NCBI GenBank assembly: GCA_030445695.1
Contig: JASUTF010000006.1
Location: 1-34,665, forward strand
DNA length: 34,665 nt
Direction of reading: 5' to 3'
Source: Candidatus Iainarchaeum sp.
GTDB lineage: Archaea > Iainarchaeota > Iainarchaeia > JAADDC01
Part shown: positions 209-27,719 of the stretch, piece after piece
How positions within the stretch are numbered: the first letter of the stretch is position 1
Layout: every line of letters begins with the position of its first letter
Notes under the pieces: model-generated
The model's input: the letters and a program-made list of their open reading frames with translations, nothing else
What the model was told of the DNA's origin: nothing
Databases searched by the model: none
Position numbers and translations under genes: made by a program

Positions 209-218
209 GGTTATAACC
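209..218 (-). promoter_or_regulatory. TATA-like element upstream of the C/D sRNA
   Basis: ggttataacc located at archaeal TATA spacing from the predicted sRNA 5' end. Confidence 0.45.
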
Positions 219-2976
219 GGATCAGGGTGTAGTGCCCCTTGAAGATGGGGAGAAGGGGCTTCTTTATCTCGACAGCAAGCTCGCCTGTCTCCGCTATCCT
301 GTCCATTGCCTTCTTAACGACGTCTTCCCTTATCCCCAGCTCCTCTGCGATCTCGTCAGATCTCTTCTGCTCGCCCCTCTTCATCTTCTTAACAATCTTG
401 GCTATCTGGGCAGCAGTGGCGAGGATTAGATCGCGCTCGGCCACCGTGGATAACTCCTCCTTTGCGGCACTGCCTTTCTTCTCCTTAGCCGCGGATTCGA
501 CCTCGTCCACCTTCTTCTGCAGCCGTTTCACCAGACGCTCTATCTCCTTCATGGTCTTCGCGGTCCGTATTATGCGGTCAGAGTGGGTGGCAACGATGTG
601 CGCGTGCGGTGACCCCGTCTTCTCGGCGAGGGCTACTGCCGAGGACTTTATCTTCCTCGCGTGTGCCTCTTTGGCGTTCGCCACCGCCTTGACGTGGGTA
701 GCCGTGTGCGTGACGGGGATGACCAGACGCTTCACGTCCGAGTGGTGGTCTAGCACAGCGGCATGATGAACATTGCCCTTCTTGACCGCCTCTACCTCTG
801 CCTCCACGAGAGCACGGAGTTTCTTAATCTTCGAGCGGATCTCGTCCAGCTCGTCCGCCAGCCCTGCCTCGCGAACCTCGCGGACGTATGCCCGCAACGC
901 CTCTATATCCTTTATGATCTCCTTGAGTTCCTTCTCGTCCAGAATCGCGCGGGCGTTCTTCACGCTATCGGCAACGCTGTCCACCGCCCTGTATATGTCC
1001 TCCAGCTTCGACTTCACCGCCTTGACGTCTGCATCGGATATGACGGAAGATATCTGTGCTATCTGCTCCTCGATGTCGGCCAGTTCCCTGTTCGCTGACT
1101 TCTGATCTGCCCTGCCCTCCTCCACCGCCTTGTGGAGCTCCTCAATACGTGAGGATAACTCGGCGAGCTTCGAAGTGACGTCGTGCTTCTTGACCGCCTC
1201 CAGGATGCCAATAAGTTCCGAGTGAATGATGGATAGGGAATCTTTGAGTGCCTGCAGCTGCTTTGACACCTCGGAGTCGCGGTGCTTCCTGAGCTCGCGG
1301 GAAGCGGACTGGATCGCCTCGCGGAGGTTCTCTATCTCCTTCTCTATGTGCTTCTGCAGCTCTGCCAGCTTGGCAGGCGTTGTGGAGACGGACTCCTCCA
1401 CCTTCGCCAGATGCTCGTCAAGGGCCCGGAAGCGGGCAATGAGATCCGCCACGTCCCCCGAGTGCTTCTTTAACAGGGTGCTGTTCCTGTGAATGAGATC
1501 GGTGATGGAGACGAGCTTCTTTGACAGTTCGGACAGCTCCTCGCGAACCGCCTGAACCGTAGATGGCGTAACGTCCTCCTTCAACAGGTTCTCCAGCTCC
1601 TCCATGCGTTCGTCGATATGCTTGACGTAGTCCTCGAACAGCTTGTGCTCCGCCTCCTCCTGGGCAGAGATGTGGGCGATAGCCTCGGAAAGCGATGAGA
1701 ACATGCCCTGCAGGTACTGGTGGAGCTTTGCAATGCGCTCCTCGTCTTCCTTCGAGGCGGTGGACTGTAGCTGGTGAAGCGTCTGGATGATCTTTTCGGT
1801 GCGTTTTGCGAGCTTCTGGATTGCCTCCTTCCTCTCGTCCAGAGATCCCGCGATGGCCTGCTGTACCGCCTCAACGGCAAGGTTCAGCGACTCCAGTTCC
1901 TTCTCGAGGAGTTCGAACTGCTTCTCCATCCACTCCCTGTCCTTGTCGCGTGCGGCAACCAGTTTCTTTACCTCTGCAAGCTCCGCCTTTAGCTCATCTA
2001 TTTCTGAGAGTTTCTCTTCGACCTCCTCCACTTTCGAAACGATGGAGGTGGTACTCTTCTGGAGTTCCTCGGATATCTCCTGCGGGACGGATGTGATCCC
2101 CGTCTCCAGACGTGAGGTGTGCTCCTCGATGAGGGAAGACACGTTTTCGGGAACGTGATCCACAGCGATCACGAGGGTGTCGATCTTGGCACGAAGATCT
2201 TCAATCTCCTTCAACTGCGACTCTATGTCGGAAAGCTTAGATCGTAATTCCTCAACCGCAGATGTGATCTCAGGGAGCTTGGAACGGATCTCTTCAAGTT
2301 TCTCGGGTGTAGTGGCCACCTTACCCGTGTCCTCGGCAACGCGTTCGAGGGTCTTCTGGACCTCCTCGAGGGTGCGGACCTTTTTATACACGGCGGCCAG
2401 ACGCCGGGACAGGATCTTCGTTTGCTCGTCCATGGCTGTCTGGAGGGATGAGCGGAGCGAAATGACCTGGTCGTACATCTCTGCGTTCTTCTTGTAAAGG
2501 TCGTCAAGGCCGTCGAGCTTGTCCAGCTTCTCCGCCTGTTCCTCTAATCGCGCCATGCGTTCAGAAATGGATGGAAGAATCTCGGCGAGTTTGTCTATCT
2601 TCGGGGTAACGTCGGACAGAGAGCGTGTTACAGAGGATGAGACAAACGTCTTTAACTCTTCGATGCTGGAACGCACCTTTTCGAACTCAGGAGAGACGGC
2701 GTCCAGCTTCTTCTGGAGCTCCTCCAAAGAGCGTAGTTTCTCCTCTATCTCGGAAACGGAATGTGATATTTCCGTGAGAAGTGCCCCGTATTCCTCCTCT
2801 TCGCCAGGTTCCTGGGCCGCACGCAGGAGAAGTTCGACGAGAGCGTCCACCTTTCGCAGAAGCTCCTTGCTCTCCGCTGCAAGGCGGCGAATATCCTCAA
2901 GCTTCTCCATCTTCTCGTCTTCCTCGAGTGAGTTATAGAACTCTTCCAGTTTCAGTTCGAGCTCGTCGGAGCTCAT
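211..2976 (-). CDS. Very long coiled-coil protein with His-rich segment and C-terminal winged-helix-like domain
   Basis: ORF 211..3033; start MSSDELELKLEEF at 2976 preferred (TATA-like tttatat lies just upstream near 3030-3040). Heptad-rich E/K/L sequence; C-terminus AEELGIREDVVKKAMDRIAETGELAVEIKKPLLPIFKGHYTLIRL resembles winged helix. Confidence 0.8.
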   Translation of the reverse strand: MSSDELELKLEEFYNSLEEDEKMEKLEDIRRLAAESKELLRKVDALVELLLRAAQEPGEEEEYGALLTEISHSVSEIEEKLRSLEELQKKLDAVSPEFEKVRSSIEELKTFVSSSVTRSLSDVTPKIDKLAEILPSISERMARLEEQAEKLDKLDGLDDLYKKNAEMYDQVISLRSSLQTAMDEQTKILSRRLAAVYKKVRTLEEVQKTLERVAEDTGKVATTPEKLEEIRSKLPEITSAVEELRSKLSDIESQLKEIEDLRAKIDTLVIAVDHVPENVSSLIEEHTSRLETGITSVPQEISEELQKSTTSIVSKVEEVEEKLSEIDELKAELAEVKKLVAARDKDREWMEKQFELLEKELESLNLAVEAVQQAIAGSLDERKEAIQKLAKRTEKIIQTLHQLQSTASKEDEERIAKLHQYLQGMFSSLSEAIAHISAQEEAEHKLFEDYVKHIDERMEELENLLKEDVTPSTVQAVREELSELSKKLVSITDLIHRNSTLLKKHSGDVADLIARFRALDEHLAKVEESVSTTPAKLAELQKHIEKEIENLREAIQSASRELRKHRDSEVSKQLQALKDSLSIIHSELIGILEAVKKHDVTSKLAELSSRIEELHKAVEEGRADQKSANRELADIEEQIAQISSVISDADVKAVKSKLEDIYRAVDSVADSVKNARAILDEKELKEIIKDIEALRAYVREVREAGLADELDEIRSKIKKLRALVEAEVEAVKKGNVHHAAVLDHHSDVKRLVIPVTHTATHVKAVANAKEAHARKIKSSAVALAEKTGSPHAHIVATHSDRIIRTAKTMKEIERLVKRLQKKVDEVESAAKEKKGSAAKEELSTVAERDLILATAAQIAKIVKKMKRGEQKRSDEIAEELGIREDVVKKAMDRIAETGELAVEIKKPLLPIFKGHYTLIRL

Positions 2977-3057
2977 TTTCTTCTTCTTTTTCGTCTCCGC
3001 GGAGGCCACGAAGAAAAATGGCATAACCCACATATAAATATGTCAGAAAGGGCGAAA

Positions 3058-3747
3058 CTACCGCCCGGTGGTTTCATAAAGTTCCAGCAGTTCCCGTGGC
3101 TCCAGCTCAAAGGGCCGCCGATCGTCATCAAAACCCATATTGGACAACCGCTTCCTCTTGTTCTGGAAAATGCACTGGAGGAACCTGTAATAACCTTCAA
3201 CGTCCCCGTATTCCCGAACCCTTTTGAAGAAGAAGCCGGCCATGCTCCCGCGGGGATGCGGATAAAAAGCATCGGAGGGGAGGCGGTAAGCGTCAACAAC
3301 TTCGTAGAACGTCTGGACAAGTGCCGAAAGGGCGGAGTACTCTTTCCAGCCCGGCTCTGCAGTAACGGAAAGTACCACGCTCTCCCTTGCCACGCCAAAC
3401 ACGTGTTCAAACCCCAGAAGAACGGCTCTCGTGATGACGTCCCTTGTCCGCTCCGGGGGTGCCTCGACGAACACGTTTACACCTGAGGGAAACTCTTCGG
3501 GCTCGCTATCGGGGACGGAAACGTGCGGGTACTCCTGGCGGAGAGCGGAGCGCATGGGCTCGGCGTCCAGGGCCGTGCCACCGACGTATCTGAAGACGAA
3601 ACCGGGAAAGGCGTGGGGGAAGACGACGTCGCCGTGCCCCGCGAATTCCTCTATGAACTCGGTGTCCACGAGTACCTCCTTGCGCAGGAGAGAAGGAGGG
3701 ATACGGTATTTGATCATCAGTTTCCTCAGGTCGGGGACGAGGAGCAC
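3058..3747 (-). CDS. KsgA/Dim1-family protein with degenerate SAM-binding motifs (predicted inactive methyltransferase)
   Basis: C-terminal half collinear with KsgA: ESVVLSVTAEPGWKEYSALSALVQTFYEV...AFYPHPRGSMAGFFFKR...IFQNKRKRLSN. Immediately downstream of DUF655, as in the conserved L21e-RpoF-DUF655-KsgA order. Motifs ExGPGxG and N(I/L)PY not found. Confidence 0.75.
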   Translation of the reverse strand: MLLVPDLRKLMIKYRIPPSLLRKEVLVDTEFIEEFAGHGDVVFPHAFPGFVFRYVGGTALDAEPMRSALRQEYPHVSVPDSEPEEFPSGVNVFVEAPPERTRDVITRAVLLGFEHVFGVARESVVLSVTAEPGWKEYSALSALVQTFYEVVDAYRLPSDAFYPHPRGSMAGFFFKRVREYGDVEGYYRFLQCIFQNKRKRLSNMGFDDDRRPFELEPRELLELYETTGR

Positions 3748-3751
3748 GGGA

Positions 3752-4297
3752 TCACCGGCCGGGCGGGCGTGCGAAGAGATAGTACTTGCAGGGCTCTGTG
3801 AGCTCTTTCATGATGCGGTGGACGATGATGCGGACCGGGTCACCAAGCAGCGGCACCCTCTTCCTTATGTCCTCGAAGGACTTGAAGGGCTCTCGCTCGC
3901 GCTCGTCGAGGATGTGGAACAGGTGCTTCTTCCCTATACCGGGGAGGAGTTCAAGGGAGTGGAGGCGGATCGTGATGGGCCGTGCCTCGTTGAAGAAACG
4001 CACGTACTCTTCCTCTCTCTCAAGGACTATTCTCCTTATCGCCTCCTCGAGGTTGGACTTCGCAAGAGAGGTGAGATCATCGTAGCGGATCCTCCCCTTT
4101 ATGACCTGGACCTTTGGACGCTCGCCCTTCCCTATGTACAGTTTTTCAAAAATCTGGATGTCTGCACCGGGCTTTGGGACCAGTTCAAGAAGGGTATAGT
4201 ACTGAGTACCGAGAACCTGGGCGATAGGTGTAGCCCGCGGGTCTGCGGGCTTCCCCATTGGAAGATAGTCCAAGACGAGGGCGTAGTCCTCCTTCAT
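3752..4297 (-). CDS. DUF655 family protein (HhH-containing)
   Basis: MKEDYALVLDYLPMGKP..., HSLELLPGIGKKHLFHILDERE (HhH), located between RpoF and KsgA-like gene. Confidence 0.9.
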   Translation of the reverse strand: MKEDYALVLDYLPMGKPADPRATPIAQVLGTQYYTLLELVPKPGADIQIFEKLYIGKGERPKVQVIKGRIRYDDLTSLAKSNLEEAIRRIVLEREEEYVRFFNEARPITIRLHSLELLPGIGKKHLFHILDEREREPFKSFEDIRKRVPLLGDPVRIIVHRIMKELTEPCKYYLFARPPGR

Positions 4298-4305
4298 GTC
4301 CTCCC

Positions 4306-4623
4306 CTAATCCTGAAGTGCCTCGAGAATCTTGTCATAGAGATCCTCTGTGACTCCCTCTTCCTTGGCGAGCACGGTGTAGAGGTCTATCCTGTCCCTTG
4401 GCCAGATGTTCACGATCTTTACGGCAAGTTCCTCTGAAAGACCCAGTTCAACGAGCTTCTTAACGGCATCCCTTGCCTTCTCTGCGTCCACGTGGGCGAC
4501 ACGCTTCACGTACTCCGCGGTCGCCTTCTGCTCGTATGTGGGCTCTCCCTCGATGGATGCGACGATCTCCCCTGCCTCCGGGACGGTGACGGGCTTGGAG
4601 GAAATGAGTTCCTTGCCTATCAT
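4306..4623 (-). CDS. rpoF: DNA-directed RNA polymerase subunit F (Rpb4-like)
   Basis: MIGKELISSKPVTVPEAGEIV...VKIVNIWPRDRIDLYTVLAKE; synteny with L21e. Confidence 0.9.
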   Translation of the reverse strand: MIGKELISSKPVTVPEAGEIVASIEGEPTYEQKATAEYVKRVAHVDAEKARDAVKKLVELGLSEELAVKIVNIWPRDRIDLYTVLAKEEGVTEDLYDKILEALQD

Positions 4624-4916
4624 GCGTTCACCCTCTTGAGGTGTATGGGCAGGGCAAGCACGATCTTCTCGGCGTTGCCGTCGCGTATCTTCACTTTATA
4701 CGCAGCGCCCTGGGAGCCGACCACCACACCGACGCGCCCGTTGAAGCGCGGGTGCGGGCGGCCCCGCTGGATGCTGGGATGGATGTCTATGACCACTCGG
4801 TCGCCCTCGTGCAGGATCTGAAGCATCCTGGATATGGTAACGGGCGGTGTCTTTCCTCTCCACTTCCTAAGCTTGTGACGTGTCTTCCTGTGGAATCCGG
4901 CTGTCTTGCGCACCAT
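4620..4916 (-). CDS. rpl21e: 50S ribosomal protein L21e
   Basis: GFHRKTRHKLRKWRGKTPPVTISRMLQILHEGDRVVIDIHPSIQRGRPHPRFNGRVGVV. Confidence 0.95.
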   Translation of the reverse strand: MVRKTAGFHRKTRHKLRKWRGKTPPVTISRMLQILHEGDRVVIDIHPSIQRGRPHPRFNGRVGVVVGSQGAAYKVKIRDGNAEKIVLALPIHLKRVNA

Positions 4917-10555: not shown

Positions 10556-11710
10556 TCACGGGAGGAACGCCTTCGCCTCGAGTTTTGCAGGCGTGTACTC
10601 CTTTGTTATGAAGCGGAAGTACTTTGATGACCCTGCTTCCAGCTCCATCTTAAACCCTTCCTTCTCCATCAGGTCAAACTCCCTGTGCCACTCCTTGTGC
10701 TTGAACCATGGGTATCTCCGCATCTCTTTTAGGCGTTTCCTGTCCTGATCCGTGAGTTTTATCTTTACCTCCTTACCGAACTTGAAGTCGTGGTAATCGC
10801 TTATTGTAAGACCAAGGAACCGGGAATCGGGCGTTGCAAGCGTGGGGGAGAGATAGGAAAGGTTTATGGAGCCCTGCTTGTAGACAGAGTAGATATACCA
10901 CCCCCACGGGTCGGCGTCGGTCATCACGTAGACGGGGAGTTTGTGCTCGTAGTGGAGGCGGTGGACTATGCGGCGGGTCGCACGGTCCGGCTGACCACTA
11001 CCCGTAACAATTATGCAGTTGTGCTTGTTCCAGAACCGGTCCTCGTGGAAGCGTGTCCAAACGGCGTCTTTCTCTATGACGAGGACGAACTCCGCCTCTA
11101 CCTTCTTGATTCGGACGCGTTCCGGTTCTGCGATGGGGGGGATCGCCCAGCCGCCCATACCCACGTTCTCTCCGTCCGTCTCCACGATTCTTGGCGGCCC
11201 TCCGTCCGGGTCGGGCACTACCTCCTCTATCTGGATGGGGCCTGCCAGCTTGCCCTTGCCTCCCTTTGAGAAGACGTGCATCTGCTCCCTGACGAATCCG
11301 AGCATCGTCTCAAGATCCTCGATGGCCTTGTCCGACTCGCGCTGCTCGTCAACCGTGTTCTCCTTTGTGCCGGGGATCGTGTGCTTTATGCGGTAGTAAA
11401 CGTCACGGAGCGACGTGGTAATGCCCTCCGAGACGAGGTCCTTTATGGTGGATGCCACAAGGGCCGTCTGGAGGAACTTCTTCGCGTGACCCACGTTGAG
11501 GAACTCTCTCTTTGCAACACGCTCGCCCATCTGGATGATTCCCTTCTCCTCATCGAAGAACACGTTGGAAAACGTCCTTACGGGGACTTCCATATACACC
11601 TTCTTCTCCGCCTGGGCTGCGTTGACTATCTTCTCGGCCCACTCACGGAGCTTCTTTAGGATAACCTCGTCCGTTTCCTTCAACAGGGTGGTTATGTCCT
11701 TCTCGCTCAT
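10556..11710 (-). CDS. top6A: DNA topoisomerase VI subunit A
   Basis: TSLRDVYYRIKHTIPGTKENTVDEQRESDKAIEDLE; Toprim VYVMTDADPWGWYIYSVYKQGSINLSYLS. Confidence 0.96.
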   Translation of the reverse strand: MSEKDITTLLKETDEVILKKLREWAEKIVNAAQAEKKVYMEVPVRTFSNVFFDEEKGIIQMGERVAKREFLNVGHAKKFLQTALVASTIKDLVSEGITTSLRDVYYRIKHTIPGTKENTVDEQRESDKAIEDLETMLGFVREQMHVFSKGGKGKLAGPIQIEEVVPDPDGGPPRIVETDGENVGMGGWAIPPIAEPERVRIKKVEAEFVLVIEKDAVWTRFHEDRFWNKHNCIIVTGSGQPDRATRRIVHRLHYEHKLPVYVMTDADPWGWYIYSVYKQGSINLSYLSPTLATPDSRFLGLTISDYHDFKFGKEVKIKLTDQDRKRLKEMRRYPWFKHKEWHREFDLMEKEGFKMELEAGSSKYFRFITKEYTPAKLEAKAFLP

Positions 11711-13269
11711 TCTTCAGCCCCCACTCCAATCTTCGCCTCGAGTTCACGCAGACGCCTGTAGCGTTCCTCTAGGGCAGCGGAAAGGACTGCCTGAACATCT
11801 TCCGGCTTCTTCTCGAGGATCTTCGCCAGGGCAGCGGAGAGTTCAGGCAGGTAGTGGTCCAGTATCCTCTTCTTGGCAAGTAACTCCTTTATCTGGGATA
11901 CCTTTGATGTATACTCACGGACGCGACGTCCTGCCTCCATCAACGCGTTCCTTATCTCGGCAACAACCTCGGGGACGTCTGCTATCGCCTGCTTACCGGC
12001 AGAGACGTAGGGGATGTGCGTCGATACGATGTTCACGAATATTACCATGTTCGCCTCGTTTAGCGACGGGACTCCGTAGCGTTTCCAGTCAATGGACTGG
12101 ACGGCCTGCGTTATCGCACAGGCGCCCTGTTCAAAGAGGAGGGGTGCCCTGTTCGCGTAACGCATGAGCTCAAAGCCCTGAATGTCGCCGTCCATGGCCA
12201 CACCAACCTCGACGAGGAATGGGATACCACCAGAATATACCTTCGGCTTCCTGGTCACCGTGGCCACGTAACGCGGCTTCAGGTTCGCCCGCAGGGACTT
12301 CTTTATCTGATCCTCGCCGATGGAGATGAGGACGTCCGTTGAAGGTGACCGGAACTTGAGCTGCTTCAGCGCACTGACGATCTTCTCCGCCTCGTGCCAC
12401 TGAAGGTCCGCCGGACTCTTCTCGAGCAGGGATCTGCCCACGAGTTTCTCCAGTTCCTTCACGGACTTGTCGCCAAAGGCCTCCAGCTCGTTTTTGAGCA
12501 TGGATGAGACCTTCCTTGCCTTGGTTACGTAATGGGCGATGGTCATGAGGTCGTCCACCGTGATCCCCAGGGGGTGCGGCTTGCCCTCCTTCGCCATGCG
12601 GACGACCTCAAAGGACGTCCTATACCAGACGGTCCTCGTCCCGTCCGGCTCCACGAGCGTGATCTGCGCGTGGGGGTTGGCGATGGCAGTTCTCCGGATG
12701 TACTCGTATGCAGAGTATTTGGAGTGGTTATACGTTACCTCCTTCATCTCCGCCGTGACTTCCGTGCCCCTCCACTCGCCCTCGTAGCTCTTCCTGTTCT
12801 TAACGATGGGCTCATTTCGCTTCACATCGATCATCACGTCCATTTCCCATATTACGCCGTCTCCCCTGCTCGTCTTCACGTGAACTGGTTTGCCCGTCGT
12901 CATCTGTGCAAACATGGTTACGCCCGCGGCTCCGATACCCTGCTGGCCACGGGTGGGGATCATGCGGTGGAACTTCGTGCCCGCCAGGAGCTTCCCGAAG
13001 ACCTTGGGGACAATGTTGGGAGGGATTCCAGGGCCGTTGTCGCGCACCTTCAGGACGTAATGGTCATCTCCTACCTTGTCTATCTGGACGTAGAGCTCCG
13101 GTAGTATCCCTGCCTCCTCGCACGCGTCAAGTGCGTTCGAAACGTACTCGTGAACCGCCGTTGTGAATGAACGTATCTTGCTTGAGAACCCCAGCATCTG
13201 CTTGTTCTTCTTGAAGAATTCGGCCACAGAATGCTCCTTAAATTCCTTGAAAAGATCCTTCTCGGCCAT
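11707..13269 (-). CDS. top6B: DNA topoisomerase VI subunit B
   Basis: GHKL ATPase motifs: EYVSNALDACEEAGILPE, VRDNGPGIPP, TRGQQGIGAAGVTMFAQ; 4-bp overlap with top6A. Confidence 0.96.
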   Translation of the reverse strand: MAEKDLFKEFKEHSVAEFFKKNKQMLGFSSKIRSFTTAVHEYVSNALDACEEAGILPELYVQIDKVGDDHYVLKVRDNGPGIPPNIVPKVFGKLLAGTKFHRMIPTRGQQGIGAAGVTMFAQMTTGKPVHVKTSRGDGVIWEMDVMIDVKRNEPIVKNRKSYEGEWRGTEVTAEMKEVTYNHSKYSAYEYIRRTAIANPHAQITLVEPDGTRTVWYRTSFEVVRMAKEGKPHPLGITVDDLMTIAHYVTKARKVSSMLKNELEAFGDKSVKELEKLVGRSLLEKSPADLQWHEAEKIVSALKQLKFRSPSTDVLISIGEDQIKKSLRANLKPRYVATVTRKPKVYSGGIPFLVEVGVAMDGDIQGFELMRYANRAPLLFEQGACAITQAVQSIDWKRYGVPSLNEANMVIFVNIVSTHIPYVSAGKQAIADVPEVVAEIRNALMEAGRRVREYTSKVSQIKELLAKKRILDHYLPELSAALAKILEKKPEDVQAVLSAALEERYRRLRELEAKIGVGAEE

Positions 13270-24962: not shown

Positions 24963-25193
24963 ATGAGGGCATACGTGCTGGTCCGCCTCCACAGGGGCGA
25001 GCGGGAACTCGTGGATTACATGAGGAAACAGGATCACGTGGAGAGGGCGGACATCGTTTACGGGGAGTACGACGTCGTGATCATAGCAAACGTAAAGGAC
25101 ATACGGGAACTCTCCCACCTTGTGCTGGACGACATAAGGAAGAGGTTTGACGTGGAGAGGACCTCCACGCTCATCGTAACGGAATCAGAGTAG
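24963..25193 (+). CDS. Lrp/AsnC ligand-binding (RAM) domain protein, stand-alone
   Basis: MRAYVLVRLHRGERELVDYMRKQDHVERADIVYGEYDVVIIANVKDIRELSHLVLDDIRK. Confidence 0.85.
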   Translation: MRAYVLVRLHRGERELVDYMRKQDHVERADIVYGEYDVVIIANVKDIRELSHLVLDDIRKRFDVERTSTLIVTESE

Positions 25194-26705
25194 TTCCAGG
25201 TCCTCCTCCACGCGCTTCTGCCTTTCCTCAAATTCCTTTGCCATCTCGATCAGGTCCTTCTCGTACTTGGACTCTACGGAGCGGCGCTCGCGGATCTTAA
25301 AGAACACGGGGAAGTTGACTGCCGCCCCGACGATTATGGCCTCACCGGGCCGGAGGTTTGTTATCATGCGCTCGGAACGGGAGTCAATACCTTCTGACGA
25401 CTCCGCAACGTGATTCAGGTCGTAGGGGTTTGTCATCCGCATGATTATATGCGTGTTGCACTGGGAGAGGGCGGTGGAAGAAAGTTTAACTGGGCGCTGG
25501 GATATGAGGCAGAGTCCCACGCCGAACTTCCTGCCCTCGCGGGCGATGGTCTCGATAACACCGCGGGCGGGAACGTCCTCCCTTGAACGCTCCGAAGGGA
25601 CGAAGTTGTGGGCCTCCTCCACGATAACGAGCGTTGGGGGAATTCTGCCCATGCGACGCAGATCAAAGATGCGTTTTGCGAAGTAGGTCACCACGAACTG
25701 GCGTTTCTTGGCGTCCACCGTGTTGGAGAGGTCAAAGACCACCAGTTTGCCCGGGGCAAGGATGGACTCCACGGAGGGGCGCTCAACGGCGTCGAAGAGC
25801 CGGGTCGCCTCCAGGGAGCGGAGCCAGGAAACCAGTGGGATCTTCATGTTCTCCTTTATCTTCGGATCCGTCTCCACGCGGGCGATGATGTCCTCAAGGC
25901 CGTAGGGGCCGTTGCCGGCATCCATCTCCTCGCGGAGCTGGTGTATTATGCGGTCGAGTTCGCGGATCTGGGCGGAGGAGAGGTTTGGCAGGAAGTAGAG
26001 GAAGTCGTAGGCGTTGAGAGATGGGACGGGGATGCGCATCTGGTCGATGGGTATGACTTCAGTCCTGTCCGAGTAGTCCCGGTGCGTTCCGTCGTTCACC
26101 GGCTCCTTGAAGCCCACGTACTCGCCATGGACGTCAAAAACGACGACGCCAAGGCGCCCCTGCTCTGGCTTGCGGTCAAGAAGCTCCTCGATGATAACGG
26201 ACGTCGTATACGATTTCCCCGCGCCGGACATGGCGAGGATGGCGAAGTGCTTCTGGACAAGGCGGGAGACGTCAAGGGTAACGGGGACGTTGTGGAACTG
26301 CAGGGTGCCTATATTTACCCCATCCTCTTTGAAACCCAGGAACTTCTTCAGGCGTTCGGGATCCGGGTCGTAGACGGGCGCTCCCGGGGAAGGGGGAACG
26401 GTGGGTCTCTCCGTGTGCTCCCCGGTCCAGACGACCATGGGGCGGGCGATCCCAACGAGGAATTCCCACTCGTCCACCGGGAAGTTCTGGGACATGGAGG
26501 AACGCATCTCGTACTCACGGACCACTTCCGGCTGGCCGAAATACCTGTTGGTCTTTATGACGTCCTCGACGAGTGCGAGCATCCTCCCCTGCGGTGAATC
26601 GATCTCAACATACTGCCCCTGATGAACCACACCATCGGTAATGACGAAGTCCACCCTCGTGGGGGAGGGGCTTTCCTCCGTGGATATGACCACACCTTTC
26701 TTCAT
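25185..26705 (-). CDS. herA: HerA-type DNA translocase/ATPase
   Basis: Walker A AILAMSGAGKSYTTSVIIEELL; Walker B TLVIVEEAHNFVPS; SQRPVKLSSTALSQCNTHIIMRMTNPYDL. Confidence 0.95.
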   Translation of the reverse strand: MKKGVVISTEESPSPTRVDFVITDGVVHQGQYVEIDSPQGRMLALVEDVIKTNRYFGQPEVVREYEMRSSMSQNFPVDEWEFLVGIARPMVVWTGEHTERPTVPPSPGAPVYDPDPERLKKFLGFKEDGVNIGTLQFHNVPVTLDVSRLVQKHFAILAMSGAGKSYTTSVIIEELLDRKPEQGRLGVVVFDVHGEYVGFKEPVNDGTHRDYSDRTEVIPIDQMRIPVPSLNAYDFLYFLPNLSSAQIRELDRIIHQLREEMDAGNGPYGLEDIIARVETDPKIKENMKIPLVSWLRSLEATRLFDAVERPSVESILAPGKLVVFDLSNTVDAKKRQFVVTYFAKRIFDLRRMGRIPPTLVIVEEAHNFVPSERSREDVPARGVIETIAREGRKFGVGLCLISQRPVKLSSTALSQCNTHIIMRMTNPYDLNHVAESSEGIDSRSERMITNLRPGEAIIVGAAVNFPVFFKIRERRSVESKYEKDLIEMAKEFEERQKRVEEDLELL

Positions 26706-26714
26706 TCACACCAC

Positions 26715-27719
26715 CTAAAACGGCTTGTTGGAACCACGCATGCGGAAGAGGTTGTACTCCACGCCCAGGCGCTTCTCCAGATACTCGCGAATATACGCCA
26801 TGGATCGCTTGGCAAGGCGGGCACGCACGTCCGCCTCGAGGAGGAAGGGTGGAATCGTGAACGTGCGGTTGACGGATGAAAGGGGGAGAAGTAAAGAGGC
26901 GAGGTGGTATCCAAGGTCCGGGCCTTCTGCGTAGAACTCCACACGGAAGGGACGGTCGTAATCGGATGCCTTCATGTAGAATACCCAGACGTTCTTCGCT
27001 ATCTCCTCGCCAAGGTCCTGAAGCGTGGCCTGGTCCTCGGGACGGTCCGCATACGGTATCGGCGTGGTCATCTCGCCCACGTTCATGGCATACTTCAGCC
27101 AGACGGAGTCACGCAGATGCGGGCCGCCAAGGTATGAGGCGACGCGGTTGCCCTTGGAGTCCTTGACTATGCCTGCCAGGACGACCCCTCTTCTTTTACA
27201 CTCGGCATAAAGTTTTCTATACCTTTCAAGCACTTCGCTGTAAAGATCTTTGAGCTCCGAAGACCCGCCCCGCGGTTTGTCCACGAGCTGGGGGAGTATG
27301 GAGCCGTCAAGGAAGAGGTAGTTCATTTCAACGTTCTTCACGAAGTCAAGGGCCGTCCCTATCTCCACGAGGAGCCGGGTCAAAGAGCGCAGGGGCCCGA
27401 CGTTCTCCTCCTCTACGGGCATATCGTATGTGAATATGCGGGGATCGGGCATGGCAGATGGATAGTAATCAACGCCTGTGAGCGTGCCGTTCTCGTATGT
27501 GTACCGAACGCCGACCGCCCTGACGATGATGAGTTCAAATCCCTGGTACTCCTCGGAAAGAAGCCCCCCGTCCACGGCCCCGAACCGGCCGGACACGACT
27601 GCTGGATCCACGCGGACAAAGAAGTCCTCGTGCTCCTTTCTGATGGCAAGTGCCTTGGATCGCCGGTCCTCTTCCCGCGATACGATCCTGCGTGCCAGCT
27701 CCTCCAGACGGTCAATCAC
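26715..27719 (-). CDS. nurA: NurA 5'-3' nuclease
   Basis: SGRFGAVDGGLLSEEYQGFELIIVRA; FLDGSILPQLVDKPR; VLAGIVKDSKGNRVASYL; directly upstream of herA. Confidence 0.92.
   Translation of the reverse strand: MIDRLEELARRIVSREEDRRSKALAIRKEHEDFFVRVDPAVVSGRFGAVDGGLLSEEYQGFELIIVRAVGVRYTYENGTLTGVDYYPSAMPDPRIFTYDMPVEEENVGPLRSLTRLLVEIGTALDFVKNVEMNYLFLDGSILPQLVDKPRGGSSELKDLYSEVLERYRKLYAECKRRGVVLAGIVKDSKGNRVASYLGGPHLRDSVWLKYAMNVGEMTTPIPYADRPEDQATLQDLGEEIAKNVWVFYMKASDYDRPFRVEFYAEGPDLGYHLASLLLPLSSVNRTFTIPPFLLEADVRARLAKRSMAYIREYLEKRLGVEYNLFRMRGSNKPF

Follow-up and report, generated by a model that had tools for sequence, protein, structure and literature searches.

The KsgA/Dim1-like gene in the stretch of DNA analysed here (the window; 34,665 nucleotides from Candidatus Iainarchaeum sp., contig JASUTF010000006.1) is probably a pseudoenzyme that has been kept as a methylation-independent assembly factor of the small ribosomal subunit. 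KsgA occurs in nearly all life and is one of the very few assembly factors common to all domains; opinions differ on whether methylation or a checkpoint function is what has been conserved. The open reading frame of interest encodes 229 amino acids on the reverse strand, from a GTG start at 3747 to a stop at 3058. It follows the genes for L21e, Rpo4/RpoF and DUF655 on the same strand, with a gap of 4 nt after DUF655:

4620 to 4916, reverse strand: ribosomal protein L21e (PF01157, E 5e-25)
4306 to 4623, reverse strand: RNA polymerase subunit Rpo4/RpoF (PF03874, E 2e-10)
3752 to 4297, reverse strand: DUF655 protein, the upstream operon neighbour (PF04919, E 2e-67)
3058 to 3747, reverse strand: KsgA/Dim1-derived putative pseudo-methyltransferase (profile matches, fold)

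The Pfam matches of the upstream genes confirmed the canonical L21e-RpoF-DUF655-KsgA order claimed in the preliminary description of this DNA. This is the operon position of KsgA in archaea, and the same neighbourhood is kept in relatives. Directly downstream lies a gene for a 940-residue, largely coiled-coil protein (211-3033, reverse strand), whose Pfam matches resemble generic coiled-coil noise; a 953-residue counterpart stands behind another KsgA-like orthologue (L015, 5232-8093). Elsewhere in the window, the genes for the A and B subunits of topoisomerase VI adjoin and overlap (10556-13269, reverse strand), and a HerA-like ATPase (DUF87) is encoded beside a NurA nuclease (25185-27719, reverse strand).

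The sequence taken alone matched PF00398 over residues 119-204 (E 2e-5), that is, in the C-terminal half only, and the whole protein was matched to KsgA when its relatives were used as a profile. The single sequence also matched TIGR00755 (ksgA; E 9e-12), scoring 45 bits against a family cut-off of 171, and the PDB entry 3fyc (E 5.6e-5). With hhalign, the family profile of the order aligned to 13 archaeal KsgAs over 224 columns (99.1%, E 1.3e-18), and the best PDB match of the family profile was the archaeal KsgA 8x3w (E 2e-10, residues 6-201). AlphaFold2 gave a confident model (pLDDT 96.8) from an alignment of four orthologues and 17 archaeal KsgAs, for which the top 50 Foldseek matches were all KsgA/Dim1/TFB1M-type structures. 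The model from five orthologues alone was weak (pLDDT 66.8, and below 50 over residues 1-65 in the N-terminal half), but its top 50 matches were likewise only KsgA-type structures; thus, the fold assignment is not solely a product of the added KsgAs. The predicted fold comprises the Rossmann domain and the C-terminal helical domain of KsgA, the latter shortened. The full-length profile homology and the KsgA-type fold place the protein in the KsgA/Dim1 (RsmA) family and uphold its proposed orthology, and structure prediction, which had been suggested as a check, kept the fold and left out the SAM loop.

We compared the motifs in an alignment of the window protein with KsgAs (alignment A3), in which the following features were found:

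3664 to 3687, reverse strand: LRKEVLVD, replacing the N-terminal GQxFLxD motif; KEVL invariant in the order
3589 to 3627, reverse strand: VVFPHAFPGFVFR, replacing motif I (VLEIGPGxGxLT), with a 6-residue gap after PG; AFPG invariant in the order
3454 to 3474, reverse strand: VFVEAPP, replacing motif IV (VSN[LI]PY); E95 in the Asn column, invariant in the order
3328 to 3360, reverse strand: AEPGWKEYSAL, retained KsgA segment (AxPGxxxYSRL)
3241 to 3270, reverse strand: AFYPHPRGSM, retained KsgA segment (AFxPxPKVDS)
3139 to 3171, reverse strand: IFQNKRKRLSN, retained basic helix of KsgA (LFxxRRKxLxN)
3067 to 3084, reverse strand: ELYETT, new C-terminus, with the remainder of the usual helical domain missing; TT invariant in the order

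In motif I, EIGPGxGxLT has become PHAFPGF (within VVFPHAFPGF), and the gap removes the SAM-binding loop and leaves the PG of the ExGPG strand, so that the SAM-binding ExGxGxG of an active KsgA is absent. In the model, strand 1 (residues 41-44) is kept and helix A is reduced to a 4-residue turn (50-53). Instead of the N(L/I/V)P(Y/F) of motif IV, we found E95-A-P-P in g1 and E-P-D-Y in most of g2, and RKEVL occupies the place of GQxFL. Beyond the basic helix, the C-terminal helical domain is much shorter. Every segment quoted in the preliminary description was present in the reading frame, and the loss of methyltransferase motifs that it had reported was borne out by both the alignment and the model. 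To judge from these replacements, the reduced KsgA is very probably catalytically dead, and it presumably neither binds SAM nor methylates helix 45 (h45).

The reduced reading frame was found in all ten genomes of the window's order, one copy being truncated by a contig end, and the orthologues share 36-69% identity with the window protein. The nine alignable sequences have 31 invariant columns, among them the new features KEVL, AFPG, E95 and the C-terminal TT. Motif I and motif IV were absent in every member with a readable region, so the search for relatives with complete motifs, proposed earlier as a check, returned none within the order. An intact KsgA was looked for in the ten genomes and found in none of them; the chance that one is hidden in the missing part of all ten is about 7e-9 if the gaps are independent. 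In the window genome, the only other PF00398 match (C4:8946-9257, L001) is confined to the generic SAM-binding half, and its sequence suggests a protein-L-isoaspartate methyltransferase (PCMT) rather than a KsgA. Both a second KsgA in this genome and a split gene with its N-terminal half at C4 were ruled out by the PCMT-like character of this match. Moreover, dN/dS was 0.27-0.28 in the three pairs whose dS is unsaturated (near 1.2); it was also low in the remaining pairs of the order, where dS is saturated. Purifying selection acts on the reduced gene across the order.

The rRNA target is also intact. In the order, the 16S 3' end was read for five members, all of which have the h45 loop GGGGAACC, and the substrate adenines are present as GTAGGGGAACCTGC in h45 of the window's own genome (L181). 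The same GGGGAACC was seen in every 16S 3' end read, motif-I-less lineages included, apart from the variant GGTGAACC in G016, which still contains both target adenines. An altered target rRNA was thus ruled out as an explanation.

Searches by class and by phylum gave the same 93 genomes (apparently Diapherotrites/Iainarchaeota). In the 75 readable KsgAs outside the window's order, the Asn column of motif IV held Leu (39), Phe (20), Ser (5), Ala (4), Thr (3), Ile (2), Val (1) and Asn (1). Sequences within the phylum are not independent, so one or a few ancestral changes are the best interpretation of these counts. The usual motif IV of these KsgAs is [L/F/A/S/T/I]-P-P-Y or F-[I/V/L]-P-Y; motif I is usually intact alongside it, as is a GQxF-like motif. 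The sole Asn belongs to a second KsgA copy in G027 (C49, L111) with a canonical NLPF; in the protein tree it falls among KsgAs from other archaea, the other copy of G027 being phylum-type and Asn-less, and is probably foreign, by contamination or horizontal transfer. No native KsgA in the 93 genomes keeps the Asn, and most keep motif I. Ser occurs at this position in some amino-methyltransferases, so the SPPY forms could, by analogy, be active.

Among DUF655-adjacent KsgAs in other archaea, nearly all readable motifs have Asn; one Bathyarchaeota record has TPPY beside DUF655. Micrarchaeota encode KsgA in 77 of 79 genomes and have Asn in 27 of 29 readable motifs, the exceptions being L254 and L250 with ALPY and FLPY. 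In the Nanoarchaeota-type phylum, 27 of 121 genomes gave a KsgA match at the cut-off used, with Asn in 28 of 29 readable motifs. Since Asn is nearly universal in the other groups, its wholesale loss is specific to the window's phylum among the groups sampled. Elsewhere in DPANN, the KsgA gene has often been lost outright.

G013 and G014 (f3), G015-G018 (one f4 genus) and G091 (f23) are without motif I as well. In a 16S tree that took in the window's order, f4/g7 and f3, their nearest relatives were G092 (f24), G019 (f4/g8) and G082 (f18), all of which keep motif I. As each of the three motif-I-less lineages is nearest to one that keeps the motif, motif I was lost at least three separate times. 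We also built a KsgA protein tree to place the reduced protein; its long branches attract each other, and the loss count therefore rests on the 16S tree. Furthermore, in G010 (f2; L180, 1378-3178), L21e-Rpo4-DUF655 is followed by a short reading frame and a gene that appears RIO-type kinase-like, without KsgA, and no KsgA was seen beside DUF655 in G076. The genomes are incomplete, so gene loss in these two is likely, short of proven; some lineages of the phylum have thus likely lost KsgA. Insertions of about 750 bp, possibly introns, were noticed in the 16S rRNA genes of G091 (L212) and G017 (L218), two lineages whose KsgA is without motif I, which may be a coincidence.

The window's case stands at the extreme of a series of losses seen across the phylum, whereas the preliminary description had presented it as isolated. 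A stepwise retirement of KsgA catalysis across the whole phylum, with the assembly role persisting, can be put forward only tentatively. An ancestral loss of the motif IV Asn would have left the enzyme inactive or altered and the protein persisting for assembly; the SAM site would then have been lost independently in several lineages and the gene in others, and one lineage might have arrived at a minimal, self-releasing assembly factor.

How could a dead KsgA still serve assembly? With the SAM site (the loop of motif I, plus helix A) and the motif IV Asn lost, h45 methylation would have ended, and the folded core would have been kept together with the basic, rRNA-facing segments of the C-terminal half. 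The reduced protein would most likely still bind the immature small subunit on its platform/helix-45 side, act there as a placeholder delaying subunit joining or premature initiation, and depart without a methylation step. In other members of the KsgA family, the C-terminal domain adds much of the rRNA interface. The C-terminal region of TFB1M contacts h23, h24, h27 and h45 (PMC9200640). From the short C-terminal domain we infer weaker binding at the place of KsgA, and the shortening may weaken the grip enough for methylation-independent release. In E. coli, KsgA is established to have a part in 30S assembly besides methylation, and its catalytically dead E66A variant does not leave pre-30S, blocks its maturation and is detrimental (PMC9032327). 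Similarly, KsgA E84A of H. volcanii remains on 30S with or without SAM (PMC7897474). Release is driven by methylation, so dead mutants remain stuck on 30S and do harm for that reason; a natural dead KsgA would thus need a changed release mechanism, a step that the preliminary description had left out. The assembly-factor-only role proposed there is plausible, with small-subunit binding and methylation-independent release as its presumed properties.

Four other readings were weighed. The protein might serve solely as a partner or subunit, placing some other, unrelated methyltransferase on h45 in the way that METTL14 positions METTL3; METTL14 carries an EPPL motif, which the invariant Glu in the Asn column of motif IV recalls. 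No candidate partner was found, however, the only other PF00398 match of the genome being PCMT-like, and we consider this reading very unlikely. We give still less credence to a gene in decay or a sequencing or assembly error. In the relatives, the gene does evolve faster than its neighbour DUF655 (in the nearest one, for instance, identity is 69% as against 82%), and KsgA seems to have disappeared from other lineages of the phylum; on the other hand, the frame is open in ten genomes, the nine sequences share their invariant columns, and dN/dS lies well below 1. Error as such is ruled out by the agreement of the ten genomes.

A still-active h45 methyltransferase with a divergent SAM site would fit the conserved h45 adenines and the Rossmann core, which is predicted to be intact. 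It is nevertheless highly improbable: the protein has neither the glycine loop nor most of helix A, Glu stands in place of the motif IV Asn, GQxFL is gone, and human DIMT1 is inactive when its NLPY is changed to AAAA (PMC8463865). A KsgA derivative neofunctionalised off the ribosome, as a transcription-associated or other nucleic-acid-binding factor, has a precedent in the same family in yeast mitochondrial Mtf1 (sc-mtTFB; PMC2614427). The motifs invariant only in the order and the neighbouring gene for an RNA polymerase subunit are in keeping with such a change, which we regard as unlikely. The neighbourhood is the ordinary one of archaeal KsgA and the retained segments are those that face rRNA in KsgA. 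Moreover, mtTFB acquired its function along with N-terminal-domain insertions (PMC2614427), whereas the window protein shows relative deletions.

The assembly-factor pseudoenzyme that we favour can be set beside known systems. With archaeal KsgA/Dim1 (RsmA; P. horikoshii DIMT1, M. jannaschii Dim1) it shares the operon position, the fold, the C-terminal-half segments and, likely, the rRNA-facing surface, but it is without the SAM loop, the motif IV Asn and GQxFL, and its C-terminal domain is shorter. Other Diapherotrites KsgAs, such as those of G073, G019 and G092, have also replaced the motif IV Asn and, unlike the window protein, have kept motif I, the GQxF-like motif and full length. Like E66A and E84A, the window protein would be a KsgA without catalysis; those variants stall on 30S and are harmful, whereas a whole order has fixed the natural protein, whose C-terminal domain is reduced. 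Mtf1 shares a non-enzymatic job in the KsgA family with our reading, but it is organellar and gained insertions, whereas the window gene is a single-copy orthologue with deletions in a ribosomal operon. Nanoarchaeum equitans is likewise a DPANN-type archaeon with a small genome whose ribosomes are predicted to lack h45 dimethylation; guide sRNAs directed at h44/h45 have been proposed for it. It is said in work by Seistrup and colleagues from 2017 to have no RsmA/Dim1 homologue, whereas here a degenerate orthologue under selection is present throughout the order. KsgA-dependent methylation is absent in N. equitans (PMC7897474). In the open-access literature on KsgA pseudoenzymes and on KsgA in DPANN, we found no description of such a case.

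A KsgA gene in a genome cannot be taken as a sign of h45 dimethylation. A dead KsgA fixed in one lineage, together with intermediate and gene-less sisters, makes the question of release testable: which changes in the protein or the ribosome let KsgA work without its chemistry? If true, the stepwise retirement would be a natural experiment in which the chemistry of KsgA is separated from its ancient role in assembly.
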